DNA of 36,422 nt. Origin: a bacterium. GTDB lineage: Bacteria > Patescibacteriota > Minisyncoccia > UBA6257 > GWB1-50-10. The DNA is taken from contig JAKANQ010000006.1 of the NCBI GenBank assembly GCA_021812365.1, positions 1 through 36,422 of the forward strand, read 5' to 3'. Each line of letters opens with the position of its first letter. The stretch's first letter is position 1. The translations under genes and the position numbers were made by a program. Below, in pieces: positions 5,010 to 32,991 of this stretch. The notes beneath the pieces are model-generated. The model was not told the DNA's origin, ran no database searches, and saw nothing but the letters and a program-made list of their open reading frames with translations.

Positions 5010-5036
5010 AAAAGATGCGTTAAAGCATCTTTTTAT
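5010..5036. terminator. Bidirectional terminator
   Basis: AAAAAGATGC-gttaaa-GCATCTTTTTATTTT between convergent genes. Confidence 0.8.
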
Positions 5037-5545
5037 TTTGAGAAAATCACGCCCAAATCGTAAACATCTACTTTCTTATCCCCGTGAAATCCATGAGAAT
5101 CAAGAGTTCCCTGCTTTTCGTGTATTTCAAAAATTAGTTTCAGATATTTACCGAGCACAAGTCGAGGAATTTTATACTTCCCTTCCTTTCCAAATTGGTC
5201 ATTATACCACTCAAACGGATCTTTTCCTCCCTTGCTTGCATTGCATTTCCTACACGCTAAGACTTGATTATCAATCGTATCTAAATCAATTTTGACACGT
5301 GGAATAATATGCTCCCATTCCAAATCACCTGTTGCATTACAATATGCACATTGTTTCTCATCCAAACATAGCATTTTATTTTCACGCAAAATTGAAGATG
5401 GATGCATCGCTCCATCTCGTAACTTGCAAAAAGAATGCATTACAAATGCATAATTTTTCCTATCATGCACCGCACTCTCCGCAATAAGCTTTGCATATTC
5501 CCAGTAGATTTGTTCTCTTATTGTTTTTACTATTGGCGGTGGCAT
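5033..5545 (-). CDS. HNH endonuclease
   Basis: CAYCNATGDLEWEHIIPRVK...LDTIDNQVLACRKCNASKGGKDPFEW: canonical HNH with CxxC pairs. Confidence 0.9.
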   Translation of the reverse strand: MPPPIVKTIREQIYWEYAKLIAESAVHDRKNYAFVMHSFCKLRDGAMHPSSILRENKMLCLDEKQCAYCNATGDLEWEHIIPRVKIDLDTIDNQVLACRKCNASKGGKDPFEWYNDQFGKEGKYKIPRLVLGKYLKLIFEIHEKQGTLDSHGFHGDKKVDVYDLGVIFSK

Positions 5546-5551
5546 ATTCCT

Positions 5552-6337
5552 TTATTTTAATGTTTTCACCGCCCTCTCCTGAATGACTGCGTGAGCGGAG
5601 CCGAAGAGAACGAAGACACTCTTCCCTGCCAACCACTGCTTCTCAATCTCAAGCGCGATATGTGCATTCCGCAGATGGCCTGACGCTCGTGATATATCGT
5701 TCAATACCGAATCGTGGTAGATGGGCACTGCCGCGCGAATCAAGGTCTCTCGCTCATTTTCCGAGAGCTCCCTTTCGAATATCTTCTTGTGCATTGCGGA
5801 ATAGAATGCGAATGAGTCCGATGCGCCGGGAATCCGCTCTGCAGTAGAACGCACGGCTTTTTCAATGACCTCGTCGTAGCTCCCCATAGTTCCACTGCGA
5901 AGCCACGCGCCCGCGCTCCGTGCAAAGATGAAGTAGGTTACAAGGTCCTTATCGAATAATGCTTTCAGTTTCAAAAACTCCTCCCCAAGAGGAAGGTCCG
6001 CCGATTGATACGGAATATCGCGAGCCTTGCACCACATCGCGAGCAATCCCACCTCGCCGAATTTTGTGATTACTTCCTCTTTCGAAAGAGTATCTAGAGA
6101 ATATCCACCGCGCCCCTCAATAAGCGCCACTCTCTCTCCCGCACTTTGTGTTACAAATCGCTTCCAATATTCTTCCAATACATTCCACTGCGGGTCGTGA
6201 GGGTCGCTGCTATGGCGCACACCAAAATAAAAGATAGCCTTGTCTCCATCATGAACCTCAAATGTATAGGGACTGGGATGCCCCTCAGCGAATCGCTTTT
6301 GATACTCCTCGTCGCTCAATAACAGTGATAGATCCAT
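5552..6337 (-). CDS. TraB/ChaN-like uncharacterised protein
   Basis: YFGVRHSSDPHDPQ..., ALIEGRGGYS, late VFVLFGSAHAVIQERA; weak motif resemblance only. Confidence 0.4.
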   Translation of the reverse strand: MDLSLLLSDEEYQKRFAEGHPSPYTFEVHDGDKAIFYFGVRHSSDPHDPQWNVLEEYWKRFVTQSAGERVALIEGRGGYSLDTLSKEEVITKFGEVGLLAMWCKARDIPYQSADLPLGEEFLKLKALFDKDLVTYFIFARSAGAWLRSGTMGSYDEVIEKAVRSTAERIPGASDSFAFYSAMHKKIFERELSENERETLIRAAVPIYHDSVLNDISRASGHLRNAHIALEIEKQWLAGKSVFVLFGSAHAVIQERAVKTLK

Positions 6338-6382: not shown

Positions 6383-6403
6383 GAGGAGAGCATTGCTCTC
6401 CTC
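6383..6403 (-). terminator. Rho-independent terminator of the radical SAM/precursor operon
   Basis: Minus strand GAGGAGAGC-aat-GCTCTCCTC followed by TTTTTATTT, about 10 nt after the peptide stop codon. Confidence 0.85.
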
Positions 6404-6412
6404 ACCGCACTA

Positions 6413-6607
6413 TCATTTGCCTCCGGGGGGTGGCGTGGGAGACCAGTCCTCCCAGTCGTTGTGCTGGGGCGAGTTGTTCCAGTCGGCCCAGTTGTTCCCC
6501 CACGCGACGGAAATTCCGTTCTTCGTGGTGCTGTTGATGGGCGGGAGCACAGCCGCTCGCGCGAGCGCTCCCTTCACTGCGGTACTGCCTCCACTCAACA
6601 TTCTCAT
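6413..6607 (-). CDS. Candidate RiPP precursor peptide (64 aa)
   Basis: MRMLSGGSTAVKGALARAAVLPPINSTTKNGISVAWGNNWADWNNSPQHNDWEDWSPTPPPGGK. ATGA start/stop overlap with the upstream radical SAM gene; Trp-rich tandem [N/D]WxDW motifs; terminator just downstream. Confidence 0.8.
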   Translation of the reverse strand: MRMLSGGSTAVKGALARAAVLPPINSTTKNGISVAWGNNWADWNNSPQHNDWEDWSPTPPPGGK

Positions 6608-7731
6608 GGCAATATCCTTTCCGCCGATTCCGTCGGCGCGTGACCGTTTTGATTGGAAGAAGACAGGAGATCATGAACGGTCTCAAAGATCTCGAGTCTC
6701 GCCTTGCAATAGACATACTTTCCAGTCGTCTCATCCCGCATCGCGGTACAGCCGTTGTTGCATGCAGCCCTCCATTCACAACGTACACAATCTTCGGTTA
6801 TGGTTTCGGCGCACGCAGCGTGTGCCATAGATGCCGGGCCATTCAGAATCTCGAGAAGGCCTTCCTCCTTCAGATCGCCAAGCAGATGCTTTTTGTCGCT
6901 CGAGAGTCGGTCGCACGGCCAGATCAGTCCGTCCGCATCAAGGCAGAAATAACGTGCACACGCACCATTGAAAGAACAATTCTTCGCCCGGTGACCGGAC
7001 ACGCCTGTAATCACATTCTCGATCTCTCGCACCGAAAGGTTCGCATTGTCTCTCTTCAGCCACTCATCCAAGAGAATGGAATGGGCTTCTACTACATCTT
7101 CGTTGCGAACGCTCTCGGCGGACAATTCGTTCGACTGACTTGAGCCATCCATGAAAAAATTGATGGCTAAGCTCCTCAATCCTTCTTCGTCCACGAACAA
7201 CGCGAAGTCATCCGCGAGAGTGCTCACACCGCTTCGCAGAACGGTCTGAATCACCCCCGGAGAAATGCCGCTCCTCCGCAGAATCTCGATACCGCGCATT
7301 ACGTCATCGAACGACCCGCGGCCACCCGCATTCGGTCGCTGGCTGTTATGTTTTTCTCTCGTTCCGTCGATGCTCACACCGACACGGAAATTGTGCGTAC
7401 TGAAGAACTTCGCCCACTCATCCGTGATGAGCGTGGCGTTCGTCTGAATCATATTCACAACAGTATCCCCACTCTTCTTGTACTTCTCCTGAAGTGCAAG
7501 AGCGGCCTCGTAGTATCCGATTCCGGCAAGGAGCGGTTCCCCGCCATGCCAGACAAAAGACATCTCGCCGGAAAAGATACTGAAATAGTGTTCAAAGAAA
7601 CGCTCCAAAAGCTCAAGCTTCAACACCTTCGGTGTTTTCTGATTGAGCCCGTGATAGAAACAGTACGTGCAGCGGAGATTGCATTGATCGCCGACCGCTT
7701 TGATGATGGCGGCGCGCCTCTTAGGCTCCAT
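6604..7731 (-). CDS. Radical SAM/SPASM peptide-modifying enzyme (anaerobic sulfatase maturase-like)
   Basis: CNLRCTYC (CX3CX2C); WHGGEPLL; GVSIDG; SPASM cysteines CARYFCLDADGLIWPCDR...CVRCEWRAACNNGC. ATG at 7731 with AAGGGGG RBS preferred over the track start at 7746. Confidence 0.93.
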   Translation of the reverse strand: MEPKRRAAIIKAVGDQCNLRCTYCFYHGLNQKTPKVLKLELLERFFEHYFSIFSGEMSFVWHGGEPLLAGIGYYEAALALQEKYKKSGDTVVNMIQTNATLITDEWAKFFSTHNFRVGVSIDGTREKHNSQRPNAGGRGSFDDVMRGIEILRRSGISPGVIQTVLRSGVSTLADDFALFVDEEGLRSLAINFFMDGSSQSNELSAESVRNEDVVEAHSILLDEWLKRDNANLSVREIENVITGVSGHRAKNCSFNGACARYFCLDADGLIWPCDRLSSDKKHLLGDLKEEGLLEILNGPASMAHAACAETITEDCVRCEWRAACNNGCTAMRDETTGKYVYCKARLEIFETVHDLLSSSNQNGHAPTESAERILP

Positions 7732-7767
7732 AAGTTCCCCCTTCAATTGTTAAAAAATACTGAGATT

Positions 7768-7796
7768 ACTATACGGAAAATAATAATGTTCGTCAA
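7768..7796 (-). promoter_or_regulatory. Sigma70-type promoter for the radical SAM operon
   Basis: Minus strand TTGACG, 17-nt spacer, TATAGT, upstream of the radical SAM start. Confidence 0.7.
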
Positions 7797-7859
7797 TGAT
7801 TTCCCGCTTTCTCACTACATGAGAGCTGCGTCTCCATGCGACTTGCTACAATAAATGAT

Positions 7860-8339
7860 ATGGACCTTATTCCAAGATCACGAACCGTTTTTTGGTTCAC
7901 CATCATACTCCTAGTGGTCGGCCTCGGAATATATACATTCAATAGATATTACATATTTAAAGTGGGACCGAAACCGATAGGCGGACAGATGGACGCGCAC
8001 GGCTGCCTCGTTGCCGCGGGTTACTCCTGGTGCGATAAGCGACAGACCTGCATCCGACCTTGGGAAGAATATTGCACCGCCACGATGCCGAAAACGGCGG
8101 TCTTCAACTGCGACGAACAAAAGAATATCAGCGCAAAATTCTATATCGGCGACGATAAGTATGTGGACCTCACCTTAAGCGACGGGAGAAAGCTCTCAGT
8201 CCCCCACGCCATTTCGGCATCGGGCGCGCGTTACGCGAACGCCGATGAATCATTCGTATTCTGGAACAAGGGCAATACCGCGTTCGTGACCGAGAACGGC
8301 ACCACCACATTCTCGGGCTGCGTGACTCAAACTCAATAA
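7860..8339 (+). CDS. Membrane-anchored MliC/PliC-like C-type lysozyme inhibitor domain protein
   Basis: N-terminal TM helix; GCLVAAGYSWCDKRQTCIRPWEEYC module; then VFNCDEQKNISAKFYIG..VDLTLSDGRKLSVPHAISASGARYANADESFVFWNKGNTAFVTENGTTTFSGC, the MliC SASGxRY...FWxKG pattern. Confidence 0.75.
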   Translation: MDLIPRSRTVFWFTIILLVVGLGIYTFNRYYIFKVGPKPIGGQMDAHGCLVAAGYSWCDKRQTCIRPWEEYCTATMPKTAVFNCDEQKNISAKFYIGDDKYVDLTLSDGRKLSVPHAISASGARYANADESFVFWNKGNTAFVTENGTTTFSGCVTQTQ

Positions 8340-28142: not shown

Positions 28143-29819
28143 TTACTTCACAAAAACATCAATCCTTGAAAGATGAGTCGGCACGGAACTTACCCAAAAC
28201 GGCCAAAACGCGATCTTGGCGCTATCCAGACGAGGAATGCCCAAAATAGTCATCTCCGCGGCAGACTTTTTCGCCCCCAATATACTCTTCTTTATTCCAT
28301 CTATATCGATAGTGGGCACGAATGAAACGGAACTTGTCACATTGAGTAAGATGGTTCCATTATCAAAATCGAAGACCGGATTTCCATAATCAACTGAGAA
28401 GGAATCTACGGTGTCCGAAGCCGTATCTGGGGTGCGCGCTTTATTCACAAGCGCGTCTTTCAACACGCCCTCATCGAACGCGAGCTGCCTCATCTCACCC
28501 TCCATAAAAAGATTGAATTGTGTTGAATCCTGCGCATTCATTTGTTCTTCGCTTTTCGTGACCGTGAATGAAGTGCTGCTCGCGAATGTTTTCAACTTAT
28601 CCGCCATTGCCTGGATACGCATGCCAAGAGACGACTGCAAGGCGGTACTCACTTCCGCTTCCGCGCTGCTTCTGTCCGCGGCTGAAAGTTTTGGCCTCTC
28701 ACCCACAAATCCACCAGTCATTGGAGCCGCTGATTCGGCGTAAAATCCTTTATAACGAGGCGTCCCCTTGAATCCGGGAATGGTCCAATGCGCGTCAGGC
28801 TGTATATTATACTCATCGCCAGGCTTGTCTGCGGTCACCGCAACCTCAATCTTTGAGGGGGTCAATTTTCCGCCAATGACCTTCGCGCCCGGAACGGCAA
28901 CTGCCTTATTCAATCTGAATATCTTGCCATCAGATGACTCAAATCGGGTCGACTTCACAAGAAGCTGGGATGCCGAACTGTACGCGTTGTAAATGGTAAG
29001 ATTTCCCGTAGCGTTCAAAGAAACAGTCTCCTTGCCGCTTGCAGGAAAGCTCTTGGTCAAATTCCCACGCTCCACGAAAAGCTCGCCAGGAATCAATATC
29101 GTATTGCTCGTGGTGGAAACAAGCTTATAGTCCTTCCCTATCTGAACCGTGGTATTCGATGACACGACCTCCCGTTTCAAAAAGAGCGTGATGGTAGCCT
29201 TCGGCAAAACGGCAAATGCAATCCACAGAAATCCCGCAAGAACCGCAAATAACGAAACAAAAAAGAGAATCGTCTTTTTCCGAGATTTGGGAGGACGAGG
29301 AAGCTCCTCTTTTGGTTCAACGGATCGTGAAATATCAAATGACTCCTCATGCGATATCTTTCGGAAAAAGGTGGGGGCTTTTTTTTCTAGAACATCTACC
29401 TCCTCTTCTTTAAATACCGGAGTATTGATACCCACTTCTTCTTCATCGATATGCGTGGTCCTTATTTTGACGGTCTTTGATTGAGATGCCGGTTTTGCCT
29501 GTGGCTCCGCTTTAGGAGCACGACGCACAATGCCGTCCGCCACCGGACGTCCCTTTCCCTTTTCAGGCATATGCGACGCGATTATCTTTGCGCGCAACGC
29601 GAGCTCAAGCACGCGTTCATCGCTTGATTCGATTGAGAGCGCCTTTCCCGCGGTATCGCTCTCACGCTTCAGCGCGTTGAAATTACTCAATGAGTGGCTT
29701 ATCGCCGCGTCTCGCGGTATGACGAGAATCACCGCAAATGTAGGGGCGTGAATTATCTTATCTACCGCAACATCGGTTCCATCGGTTCGATTGAGAAGTA
29801 TCTTGGTTTCGTTTTTCAT
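28143..29819 (-). CDS. Single-TM protein with large extracytoplasmic region, unknown function
   Basis: One TM (KKTILFFVSLFAVLAGFLWIAFAVLP) after a charged N-terminal region, then beta-rich Ser/Thr-rich ectodomain. Confidence 0.6.
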   Translation of the reverse strand: MKNETKILLNRTDGTDVAVDKIIHAPTFAVILVIPRDAAISHSLSNFNALKRESDTAGKALSIESSDERVLELALRAKIIASHMPEKGKGRPVADGIVRRAPKAEPQAKPASQSKTVKIRTTHIDEEEVGINTPVFKEEEVDVLEKKAPTFFRKISHEESFDISRSVEPKEELPRPPKSRKKTILFFVSLFAVLAGFLWIAFAVLPKATITLFLKREVVSSNTTVQIGKDYKLVSTTSNTILIPGELFVERGNLTKSFPASGKETVSLNATGNLTIYNAYSSASQLLVKSTRFESSDGKIFRLNKAVAVPGAKVIGGKLTPSKIEVAVTADKPGDEYNIQPDAHWTIPGFKGTPRYKGFYAESAAPMTGGFVGERPKLSAADRSSAEAEVSTALQSSLGMRIQAMADKLKTFASSTSFTVTKSEEQMNAQDSTQFNLFMEGEMRQLAFDEGVLKDALVNKARTPDTASDTVDSFSVDYGNPVFDFDNGTILLNVTSSVSFVPTIDIDGIKKSILGAKKSAAEMTILGIPRLDSAKIAFWPFWVSSVPTHLSRIDVFVK

Positions 29820-29820
29820 A

Positions 29821-30993
29821 TTAATTCTTTATTGCCGCAGAAGGAACGAGCCATCGCGCGCGCCTTCTCAGTAATTGATTAAGAAATGCATACTGAGGAT
29901 GAAGATAAGGATATCCCAAAAGCACGAACGATTGATGCTGCCATTCAGAAGCCTTATCATGGGCTGCCTCCCCCATCTCGAACTTCATATCCCCCCCGAA
30001 CCACTCCTCCGAAAACGAAGCTTTGGTAAATCCCATCTCGTCCATAAGCGTGGTAGGAAACATGACACTGGAACGAAACGCGTATTTCACGAGTGACGTT
30101 TTTCCGATTCCCGCTTCTTTGAGAAAAGGAGCGAGCATTCCCCTCAGCGCATTTGCCTCTTCTTTTGCAATTCGCTCAATGATACGCCGAACTTTTTCCG
30201 ATACTTGGTTCTTAGTATAGCGCGTTAGCATCTCCGAAACAATCGATTCATTCACACCGAAAAATTTCGCGAGCGAATGCGTGATATGGCGAGTACCCCA
30301 TTCACATCTTCCAAGATACGAACTCTCATTATTGAGGGTCGCGTACACCTCGGCGGCGGTATCGGTGATATCCACAAATACATTTTCGCCATTTAGCGCT
30401 TCGGAAAGGATGGTACCGCGCTCAATCACGATGATATTGCCCTTCACGAATTTTGATATCTTCTCAAGCGGTTCCAAAAGAGCGCGAGGAACGAATGTGC
30501 CGCGAAATCGTATCGCTACATCCCTTCCCGAAAAATCAAGCGGATTGAACACTTTATGGTCCCCCAGCGAGACGCCGCACACCACGATATTCGCAACCAC
30601 GGGCTCAAGCTCGGTAGTGCCGAATTTCTTCGCGGCAAAAGGACGATATTTATTCAAAAAACTCCAGAACGCCTTGAAAAGCATCGCATCAAGTTCGCCC
30701 TCATTGATAGGCTCGGTCGGATAATCTCTTACCACATGCGCAACTCCTTCAATGGTGGTCGCGTTAGCTGCGTCGAATGCGAAGATGGCGCGGTCGTATC
30801 CGGAAGACCTGAACGAGGGGTGCGCGAGCGCTTCGAGCGATTCGATGTGGTGCCTATCGCTCAACGTAACAGTCCTTGTATGCGTGTTTGAAAACGCGTG
30901 TGTGACATAAAAACCGCCCTCAAATTGCTCGAGAAGAAGTATCTTCTCCGTGTTCTTTGAAAATGCGGACGTTACGCGTGCGAATAAATTCAT
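29821..30993 (-). CDS. PilM/FtsA-like actin-fold protein (tentative)
   Basis: Spaced VFVDITDTAAEVYAT and GTRHITHSLAKFFGV resemble PilM-type phosphate-2/SHS2 regions; weak. Confidence 0.4.
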   Translation of the reverse strand: MNLFARVTSAFSKNTEKILLLEQFEGGFYVTHAFSNTHTRTVTLSDRHHIESLEALAHPSFRSSGYDRAIFAFDAANATTIEGVAHVVRDYPTEPINEGELDAMLFKAFWSFLNKYRPFAAKKFGTTELEPVVANIVVCGVSLGDHKVFNPLDFSGRDVAIRFRGTFVPRALLEPLEKISKFVKGNIIVIERGTILSEALNGENVFVDITDTAAEVYATLNNESSYLGRCEWGTRHITHSLAKFFGVNESIVSEMLTRYTKNQVSEKVRRIIERIAKEEANALRGMLAPFLKEAGIGKTSLVKYAFRSSVMFPTTLMDEMGFTKASFSEEWFGGDMKFEMGEAAHDKASEWQHQSFVLLGYPYLHPQYAFLNQLLRRRARWLVPSAAIKN

Positions 30994-31018
30994 CTCCGCT
31001 CTTATTATACCACCAAAA

Positions 31019-31579
31019 CTAAACGAGTATCTTCACCTCTGCAAGAAAACGCTCATAGAGATCAAGCACCCTTTCCGCATCTTTCGCGGCAAGCAAAAAG
31101 TTCGGTTCGTGAGCGATCTGATTTCTTATCTTATGCGCGCGGAATATACCGTTCACCACATTCTGGTTCAAGCCGATATGATTGAGTCTTCCAAAACGCT
31201 CCGCCACATCGCGCCCGACAAATCCAATCTCTTGTATCAATTCATCCACCAGCGCATCGGCATTCATGATGGCCATTGTATATGACGCGGGCGGCGTAAC
31301 GCGCGCATCCTCGCGAAGTTTTTTCCATCGGTCGATATACCTGTCGCGCACGCCGGACTTCTTCAAGAGTTCCGCAACAGTCGGAGGGAGCGCTTTCAGG
31401 TCCACCTTGATACGGTATGAAAGCCCAATACGGAAAAGCAACACTATTCCGACAAGGAGCGCGAGGTCAAGAGATAAGAAAAGATATTTGACCGAAAAAT
31501 AAATGAAAAGCCAATCGACGCTTTGAGACGCGCCCATAAATCCATTTATTACCGAAAAAAGTTGGGTTGGCGGGTTCAT
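31019..31579 (-). CDS. Membrane protein of unknown function
   Basis: Two N-terminal TMs; overlaps the next upstream gene by 4 nt. Confidence 0.6.
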   Translation of the reverse strand: MNPPTQLFSVINGFMGASQSVDWLFIYFSVKYLFLSLDLALLVGIVLLFRIGLSYRIKVDLKALPPTVAELLKKSGVRDRYIDRWKKLREDARVTPPASYTMAIMNADALVDELIQEIGFVGRDVAERFGRLNHIGLNQNVVNGIFRAHKIRNQIAHEPNFLLAAKDAERVLDLYERFLAEVKILV

Positions 31580-32991
31580 TTCGATGAAGATTCTATGCCT
31601 GTTCTAAACTTATCCAAATGCTCCTCCTCGCCGAAAATGGGAAGTCCCGAAGGAGGACCGGCCTTCTTGCTTTCAACGCGTCGCATATGAGGAGCGGTAA
31701 GCACCACGGAAGACGGCGGATGGAAGATGGTCGCGAGCTCATCGATAGAAAGCTCAAAATACTTACTATCGAGATTCCAATCATAGAAAAACGAGGAAAG
31801 AAGCGCCGCGGTGAATGTTTCGGGCGGATTCACGCGCTCACGCAAATTATGCAGCATTCTCTGCTTCCTATATTCCAACCGTTTATTCAAATTCACATGC
31901 GGCCAATCCCACTTATCAACCTTGGTCGCGGTCTCCGAATTTCCCTTGAATGAGTTGAGTTTCGGCGACGCATACTGGTTGAAGGCGCCAACAATACCGC
32001 CGCGCGCGAACGCGGAACCTGATTTCATGAGCGTCACGGGAGCGATATACCCTATGCGAATCAGCGTATTGAACGCCGATTTGGTGAGCTTCCTTTCGAC
32101 GGCGGCTATCATATCGCTCTTTCCAGGCGTGGCGGGAAGCGGCACTTTCGCATCGCCCGCGTCTACAAACTTCAATTCGCGCAATTTATCCAACACCTTC
32201 TCCCATTTTTTCGCCCAATCTTTCGGCGCAGGCGAGATGATTATCTGAATGCACGCGACTTCTTCTTCGGTCAATTTTCCCAGCACTTCAAGGAATACCG
32301 CAATGGGATCGGATTGCTTTTCAGCAGATTCGAAATCCGCGAATGTCTTTATCGGATATGCGTCTTCACTGCCCAATTTCATTTCCGTTCCCCAAATATC
32401 CATTTCGCGCGCGTACATCTCCGCGGTGGTTGCGGGGAGATTGCGCATATAATCAGCCACCTCGCTTACCTCGACGTCGGGATAATTGGAAAAGAACGCC
32501 ACCTCAACTAGGTGCCTGTTCTTCTTTGGTATACGCAAATACAAATGCATCTCGCCCTCCAACTTCACGATCTCAAGCGCTGACCAAATGGGAACCTGTC
32601 CATCCAAATATTTTTCATGCCAATTTCCGGGACCGCTGCCAAGCATATGAAGGGAACCAAGTACCTGCGCCATTGCCTTCGGACTCTTATCCATTTCGCG
32701 CGGAATGCGAATTTCAAGTAATAAAAATTTTTCGGCGGCCATTTCCGCCTTTTTAAATTTCTGCTGGCGCCAGTGAAGAAAAAGAGCGCGGAACAATTCA
32801 AACAATAGGAAAAAAAGCCAGAACCACCACGTGTAGAGGATGAATTCCCTGATAAGCGCGAGGATATTGATGGATGGGAAAACGGGAGCGGCTGCGACAA
32901 ATCCCATAAGCACGATAAAAAGCCACACCTCCCAATTGGAAAGGATGTTCACCACCACATCCACACCATGGCCAAAAGCTTTTCCGAACAT
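31576..32991 (-). CDS. Membrane protein of unknown function, possibly secretion-related
   Basis: Two N-terminal TMs then large soluble region (LLEIRIPREMDKSPKAMAQVLGSLHML...). Confidence 0.6.
   Translation of the reverse strand: MFGKAFGHGVDVVVNILSNWEVWLFIVLMGFVAAAPVFPSINILALIREFILYTWWFWLFFLLFELFRALFLHWRQQKFKKAEMAAEKFLLLEIRIPREMDKSPKAMAQVLGSLHMLGSGPGNWHEKYLDGQVPIWSALEIVKLEGEMHLYLRIPKKNRHLVEVAFFSNYPDVEVSEVADYMRNLPATTAEMYAREMDIWGTEMKLGSEDAYPIKTFADFESAEKQSDPIAVFLEVLGKLTEEEVACIQIIISPAPKDWAKKWEKVLDKLRELKFVDAGDAKVPLPATPGKSDMIAAVERKLTKSAFNTLIRIGYIAPVTLMKSGSAFARGGIVGAFNQYASPKLNSFKGNSETATKVDKWDWPHVNLNKRLEYRKQRMLHNLRERVNPPETFTAALLSSFFYDWNLDSKYFELSIDELATIFHPPSSVVLTAPHMRRVESKKAGPPSGLPIFGEEEHLDKFRTGIESSSK

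Follow-up and report, generated by a model that had tools for sequence, protein, structure and literature searches.

A candidate three-gene RiPP cassette of Patescibacteria with a radical SAM/SPASM enzyme, a Trp-rich precursor and a TIKI/TraB-type protein

Triceptides of the GrrM/OscB (TIGR04261) and YxdB types rely on a stand-alone radical SAM/SPASM enzyme and an adjoining small precursor gene with aromatic-x-Asn/Asp motifs. OscB, with the substrate motif W-x-N/D, links Trp to Asn or Asp, and YxdB, with the motif Y-x-D, links Tyr to Asp, in both cases between residues i and i+2 (PMC11002830). The logic of the three-residue cyclophane is common to the XncB/XyeB (TIGR04496) and FxsB (TIGR04269) systems, and Trp-rich cores are also processed by the dynobactin and darobactin maturases DynA/DarE. 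In CPR bacteria, graspetide loci have been described in which SPASM proteins and Tiki/TraB or zincin peptidases stand beside peptide-modifying enzymes, the peptidases being proposed to remove the leader (PMC8939145); this survey was the sole relevant find in the open literature searched on Patescibacteria with triceptides or SPASM proteins.

The window analysed here, a stretch of 36,422 nt, is part of a 626-kb, 98%-complete genome, and the named genomes with close relatives of its radical SAM/SPASM (rSAM) enzyme are Patescibacteria. CPR bacteria have very small genomes and live on other microbes, and little has been established about their effects on hosts and rivals; to our knowledge, there is almost no other secondary metabolism in Patescibacteria. 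We propose, with a probability of about 0.72, that the window encodes a three-gene RiPP cassette in which the rSAM enzyme installs Trp-to-Asp/Asn i+2 cyclophanes and a TIKI/TraB-type protein removes the leader. The features of this locus are the following.

5552 to 6337, minus strand: 261-aa protein of the TIKI/TraB superfamily, 46 nt past the terminator, possibly the leader peptidase (or an immunity hydrolase)
6383 to 6403, minus strand: strong rho-independent terminator or attenuator between the precursor and the TIKI gene
6413 to 6607, minus strand: RiPP precursor peptide, 64 aa, overlapping the enzyme gene by ATGA and conserved beside homologous enzymes
6437 to 6502, minus strand: core region W36-P57, in which crosslinks from W(i) to D/N(i+2) may form at W36-G-N, W40-A-D, W43-N-N and W52-E-D
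6557 to 6580, minus strand: putative leader recognition motif AVKGALAR, aa 10-17, of the family pattern A[VIL]x[GARS][AT][LFI]xR
6604 to 7731, minus strand: radical SAM/SPASM peptide maturase of 375 aa (from ATG) with a fold like that of AnSME and without an RRE domain
7768 to 7796, minus strand: putative sigma-70-like promoter TTGACG-17-TATAGT, matching at 10 of 12 positions and suitably located ahead of the enzyme start

This gene arrangement is directly observed and largely bears out the original prediction, which had named the rSAM/SPASM ORF, its ATGA overlap with a 64-aa peptide, the C-terminus of that peptide and a terminator about 10 nt after its stop. The ORF lies on the minus strand and encodes CX3CX2C together with the full SPASM cysteine set, its stop codon TGA shares ATGA with the ATG of the peptide, the peptide ends in GNNWADWNNSPQHNDWEDWSPTPPPGGK as quoted before, and the terminator was found at 6403-6383 with the sequence GAGGAGAGC-AAT-GCTCTCCTC-TTTTT. 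Judged from the sequence, the ATG at 7731 seems a likelier enzyme start than the alternative TTG at 7746 (ORF 7746-6604, 380 aa), because a Shine-Dalgarno site AAGGGGG (7743-7737) sits 5 nt upstream of it. The proposed promoter was confirmed in sequence and placement, but not in its weight as evidence: it is the best of 4 such matches in 3.1 kb, where shuffled sequence gives 4.1 by chance, so the match alone proves nothing. Two further claims had to be revised. The order of enzyme first and peptide second, thought to be unusual, is the usual one in all W/Y-type loci that could be ordered except L052 and L066. Neither a transporter nor a protease had been seen alongside; we likewise saw no dedicated transporter among the neighbouring genes scanned, which cover only part of them, and thus infer export by a general route, but the co-conserved TIKI/TraB gene at 6337-5552 is a third cassette gene that the earlier reading had missed. 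Almost every homologous locus has a hairpin similar to the terminator 3' of its precursor, whether or not a TIKI gene is present. In the window, the position of the terminator between precursor and TIKI gene leaves their co-transcription uncertain.

The 64-aa peptide is real and far beyond a chance ORF. Its conservation beside homologous enzymes, a condition set beforehand, was fulfilled, as the same leader motif occurs in many Patescibacteria. Small ORFs with this common motif and a core rich in aromatic residues, Asp and Asn adjoin homologous enzymes in Liptonbacteria (L051), Wolfebacteria (L047, L050), WWE3 (L048), Parcubacteria (L124) and Taylorbacteria (L052). Tyr-rich forms come from Harrisonbacteria (L062), Yanofskybacteria (L061), Zambryskibacteria (L055) and Yonathbacteria (L065). 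When the leader pattern was run as a regular expression over 3205 ORFs of 30-130 residues from 22 loci, 12 matched and all 12 were precursors, two of them (L056, L067) identical in sequence; the precursor of L052 was detected in this way alone. Since the motif had been derived from most of these loci, a hold-out is the fairer test, and locus L159, retrieved in a later genome search, combines the leader motif with a TIKI gene and a core that reads YYADYTDFTD. In the loci measured, the precursors have Shine-Dalgarno sites, and the distance between enzyme stop and precursor start ranges from -11 to +46 nt, except in one WDKG-type locus (L006) whose precursor overlaps the enzyme gene by 110 nt. 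None of the precursors tried has an NCBIfam model. Among viral contigs, only distant enzymes were found, and no clear precursor was found in the closest one (L137).

Two of the sister loci carry apparently damaged enzyme genes. In Liptonbacteria (L002/L051, G050:C30), the enzyme lacks the first ~66 residues including CX3CX2C at an abrupt junction, and in Wolfebacteria (L047/L031, G218) it contains an in-frame TAA; the precursors of both and the TIKI gene of the former are intact. Both copies may reflect decay or assembly error.

In order to describe the core, we took the C-terminal 30 residues from each of 15 precursors and shuffled the non-aromatic residues. The residue two positions after Trp, Tyr or Phe is Asp or Asn in 43 of 66 cases, compared to a shuffled mean of 20.2, and 43 was reached in 0 of 5000 shuffles. 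In five hold-out precursors, the count was 16 of 28 against 9.2 expected (p = 0.003). Both p-values overstate independence because the precursors are related by descent, and the hold-out test is biased towards the result, as the presence of aromatic-x-[D/N/K/R] units was part of the choice of its peptides. At the aromatic position, Trp, Tyr, Phe and His interchange while D/N at +2 is kept. The Omega-x-[D/N] periodicity, like the conservation of leader and core, is an observation and not an inference. The pattern is not absolute: in about a third of cases the +2 residue is another one, as in W55-S-P of the window core, which does not fit W-x-D/N, or in W-E-S and W-E-Q elsewhere. An enrichment of D/N at -1 was dismissed as a second motif; it vanished without an aromatic residue at -3 (15/38, background 0.31) and arises because the units repeat with period three. 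The family thus contains an aromatic-X-X motif, with a conserved Asn/Asp as third residue, in a short precursor adjoining an rSAM/SPASM enzyme, and meets the membership test on both counts. In triceptides, this third residue is typically Asn or Asp, or else Lys, Arg or Ser, and the aromatic+2 rule fits their crosslinks between residues i and i+2. One further patescibacterial precursor (L060, 7161-7400) has mixed aromatics (WSGDHSDHIDHNMPYGDYIDSH), and its sequence suggests His-x-Asp as well as Tyr-x-Asp units.

The enzyme could also be a RiPP maturase that modifies the Trp-rich core in another way, by a Trp-Trp ether or C-N link, a dynobactin-like four-residue cyclophane or a carbon-centred change at Asp. 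This would agree with the WxxW pairs of the window core (W40/W43 and W52/W55, i/i+3) and with the second-best NCBIfam score of the enzyme, which went to DynA (225 bits), followed by DarW (165). However, WxxW is dispensable, as several cores have isolated aromatics and Tyr, Phe or His replace Trp, and D/N at +2 is kept where no aromatic residue stands at +3 (25/41, background 0.31). The DynA score is only half of the cut-off (450), the precursor is unrelated to those of DynA/DarE, and the period of three is not the dynobactin/darobactin pattern. We regard such other modifications as unlikely. Thioether products were rejected, including those of ranthipeptides, sactipeptides and PapB-type enzymes, as the cores have no conserved Cys.

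The window enzyme matches Pfam Radical_SAM (2.8e-19) and SPASM (6.5e-5), with C17/C21/C24 forming CX3CX2C and C252, C258, C273, C315, C318, C324, C328 and C342 as SPASM cysteines. Its best NCBIfam score is for AnSME (TIGR03942; PDB 4k36-4k39), with which it shares the pattern of cluster-binding cysteines, and the AF2 model (pLDDT 88.9) is closest in fold to AnSME 4k37/4k39 (Foldseek TM 0.83-0.86) and then to ChlB 9gm3 (0.82). That the nearest solved enzyme is AnSME and not a cyclophane synthase speaks against the crosslink reading, and it could support an anaerobic sulfatase or protein maturase with an incidental small ORF next to it. The original prediction was to fall if the enzyme grouped with true sulfatase maturases, and it withstood this: the enzyme reached 262 bits at a cut-off of 349, compared to 462 for a control AnSME beside a sulfatase (L079) in the same search, and it falls in a separate clade. 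The window's genome (G000, 98%-complete) has no PF00884 sulfatase, a family found in 10 of 14 control genomes. In L162, of the same phylum, an AnSME-like enzyme does have a sulfatase neighbour, so the method can tell the difference. A peptide with leader and core conserved across many lineages is also no incidental ORF or chance partner. The sulfatase maturase was rejected on these grounds, and this explanation is largely refuted, with very little probability left to it.

Membership in the described peptide-modifying families was not met either. Scores for XyeB (89 bits, cut-off 450), FxsB (101, cut-off 370), AmcB (132, cut-off 425) and DynA as well as YhhB, PapB and DarE are all far below the curated cut-offs, and no Xye or Fxs precursor is present in the window system. 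The same holds for GrrM/OscB (132.4 bits, cut-off 310), to which the enzyme is less close than to AnSME; AmcB and GrrM/OscB are the best-scoring of the triceptide families. The family further differs from GrrM/OscB and YxdB in its leader motif, in a core that is not a Gly-rich repeat, in having Trp and Tyr cores in two clades, in the TIKI or zincin partner and in its occurrence in Patescibacteria.

In a maximum likelihood tree of 45 enzymes, which includes no characterised triceptide enzyme, Trp-type enzymes form one clade (100/99) and Tyr-type enzymes another (100/99). The latter is sister to enzymes beside a third precursor type (NWRGxLSNWxKC) from bins labelled Bacilli, Rickettsiales and SR1, and all three types together form a clade (99/99) that is separate from a group (100/99) of ten of the eleven enzymes labelled AnSME. 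Trp and Tyr enzymes alone as one clade, as they were first labelled, were rejected (p-AU 3e-7), and two enzymes labelled Tyr-type (L060, L066) were placed outside both clades. The enzyme clade thus tracks the Trp or Tyr type of the core. Conserved precursors, the +2 D/N statistics, this match of clade and core and the absence of a sulfatase make the reading as W-x-D/N three-residue cyclophanes well supported, but it is chemically untested and the crosslink remains an inference.

The third gene encodes a protein of 261 aa that recurs beside homologous enzymes and precursors. Nine aligned members share the invariant residues G39xxH42, E74, R223 and G246xxH249, and thereby meet the membership test for TIKI/TraB, which asks for two GxxH motifs as well as one conserved Glu and one basic position. 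TIKI proteins include endopeptidases, and a known one cannot do without its set of His and Glu residues and a basic residue close by (PMC6254334); H42, E74, R223 and H249 match this layout in order and approximate spacing. Four of nine relatives match Pfam TraB_PrgY_gumN, the best at 8.5e-6 with 26.2 bits and a cut-off of 26.8. The window protein itself has no Pfam match, a Foldseek search of its AF2 model (pLDDT 93.3) against the PDB gave nothing significant and a sequence search against the PDB nothing relevant, so that the assignment is based on motifs and relatives. Some TIKI homologues stand alone: of 16 in the order, several have no RiPP enzyme seen nearby. TIKI homologues also lie near an MvdC/D-like ATP-grasp gene (L133, L134). 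A second cassette in the Liptonbacteria genome mentioned above (L042/L013, G050:C10) has a divergent rSAM enzyme, followed by a protein that appears transglutaminase-like by eye and next by a TIKI homologue that shares 56% identity with that of the window.

Loci without TIKI usually carry, often convergently, a protein of ~300 aa with HExxH and a Glu ~35-60 residues on, invariant in 17 of 17 aligned members, for which Pfam gave only sub-threshold SprT-like matches. Near the enzyme in 43 deduplicated loci, TIKI was found in 12, the zincin in 19, neither in 12 and both in 0 (Fisher p = 0.0003), so that the mutual exclusion of the partners is plain. Some loci with neither are short contigs or stretches, the Fisher value counts related loci as independent, and three partner changes suffice on the enzyme tree, which means that part of the exclusion is inheritance. 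Nevertheless, exclusion where enzyme and precursor are of one type points to an interchangeable leader-peptidase slot, and the best explanation for the exchange of unrelated families is a common task. Leader removal would be the simplest such task, with immunity possible.

TIKI and zincin could instead be immunity or product-inactivating hydrolases, a reading that would replace the peptidase step only and not the crosslink. Erythromycin esterase-type relatives of TIKI can destroy compounds, resistance was raised as an option for such a homologue in the graspetide survey (PMC8939145), and the terminator separates the TIKI gene from the precursor. On the other hand, we saw neither a further peptidase nor a peptidase-transporter next to these genes, the one-for-one exchange of two unrelated peptidase-like folds fits a cutting job, and leader removal has likewise been proposed for TIKI and zincin in the CPR graspetide loci. 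We consider immunity a possibility, yet the less probable function of the two proteins. The graspetide loci belong to the same radiation but differ from the window cassette, in which no modifying enzyme besides the SPASM protein was seen; the precursors here lack the graspetide T/D motif. A graspetide was rejected as product, as no ATP-grasp ligase was found among the window genes scanned, which do not cover every ORF but comprise all neighbours of the cassette between 3839 and 10946.

In the pathway that we favour, cyclophane formation followed by leader removal, the rSAM/SPASM enzyme would bind the leader helix motif of the precursor. A 5'-deoxyadenosyl radical would then abstract H from the C-beta of Asp or Asn, and a bond to the Trp indole two residues back would give up to four strained three-residue cyclophanes at the sites listed above (-2 Da each). 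The TIKI/TraB-type hydrolase would then probably remove the leader, perhaps between PPINSTT and the core; its position is taken by an unrelated HExxH zincin in the sister loci. Crosslink chemistry and sites, leader binding and the peptidase role are inferred, as no chemical or expression data are available, and the same is true for export and biological activity. A peptide directed against a host or rival is plausible for an epibiont, its activity being untested. If confirmed, the crosslink chemistry would be of a known kind, in a triceptide-like RiPP family whose enzyme clade has no NCBIfam equivalog. Precursor family, enzyme clade, lineage and swappable peptidase slot are new as judged by the open literature searched, with overlap with the 2022 JACS triceptide landscape paper not excluded. 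The mutually exclusive partners make the leader-removal step directly testable. A compact cassette conserved across several Patescibacteria lineages is a testable candidate for small-molecule signals or weapons, and the enzymes are natural candidates for Trp-, Tyr- and perhaps His-selective cyclophane biocatalysis with short precursors. As to a broader proposal, an unnamed, Patescibacteria-wide clan of cyclophane-type RiPPs whose leader is cut by either TIKI/TraB or a Pfam-unknown HExxH...E zincin, we see the chances as evenly balanced; if it is true, the use of a TIKI-fold leader peptidase would be shown for the first time in a RiPP pathway.

Related precursor types were observed elsewhere. 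Precursors of ~26-37 aa ending in NWRGTLSNWIKC (or NWNGPLGNWRKC) lie beside related rSAM enzymes in five loci (L053 7053-7154, L054, L057, L058, L059) from the bins labelled Bacilli, Rickettsiales and SR1; the nearly fixed core, terminal Cys and very distant labels suggest gene transfer or mis-binned CPR relatives. In four loci (L004, L005, L006, L064), one of them in the window's own genus (G001), a precursor ending in WDKGPWDKGHWANRK (W-x-K and W-x-N units) lies downstream of an AnSME-like rSAM enzyme accompanied by an HExxH zincin. Precursors ending in WKDSGWARN (L161 1303-1422), WKNTGWLRN (L165 2537-2686) and WKKNGWLKN (L171 856-990) also adjoin an rSAM enzyme and a zincin.

Other genes of the window deserve mention. 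Three large ORFs of 558, 390 and 471 aa, with a 186-aa ORF between the last two, lie on the minus strand at 28143-32991; they have no clear Pfam family, apart from a weak match of the first to the GlxA beta-barrel. An HNH endonuclease gene (5033-5545, minus strand) is located 6 nt downstream of the TIKI gene, and its HNH domain most resembles the ones found in IscB/Cas9. A divergent gene immediately upstream of the cassette (7836-8339, plus strand) encodes an MliC-type lysozyme inhibitor (Pfam 3e-16), a protein unexpected in a CPR bacterium with a small genome.
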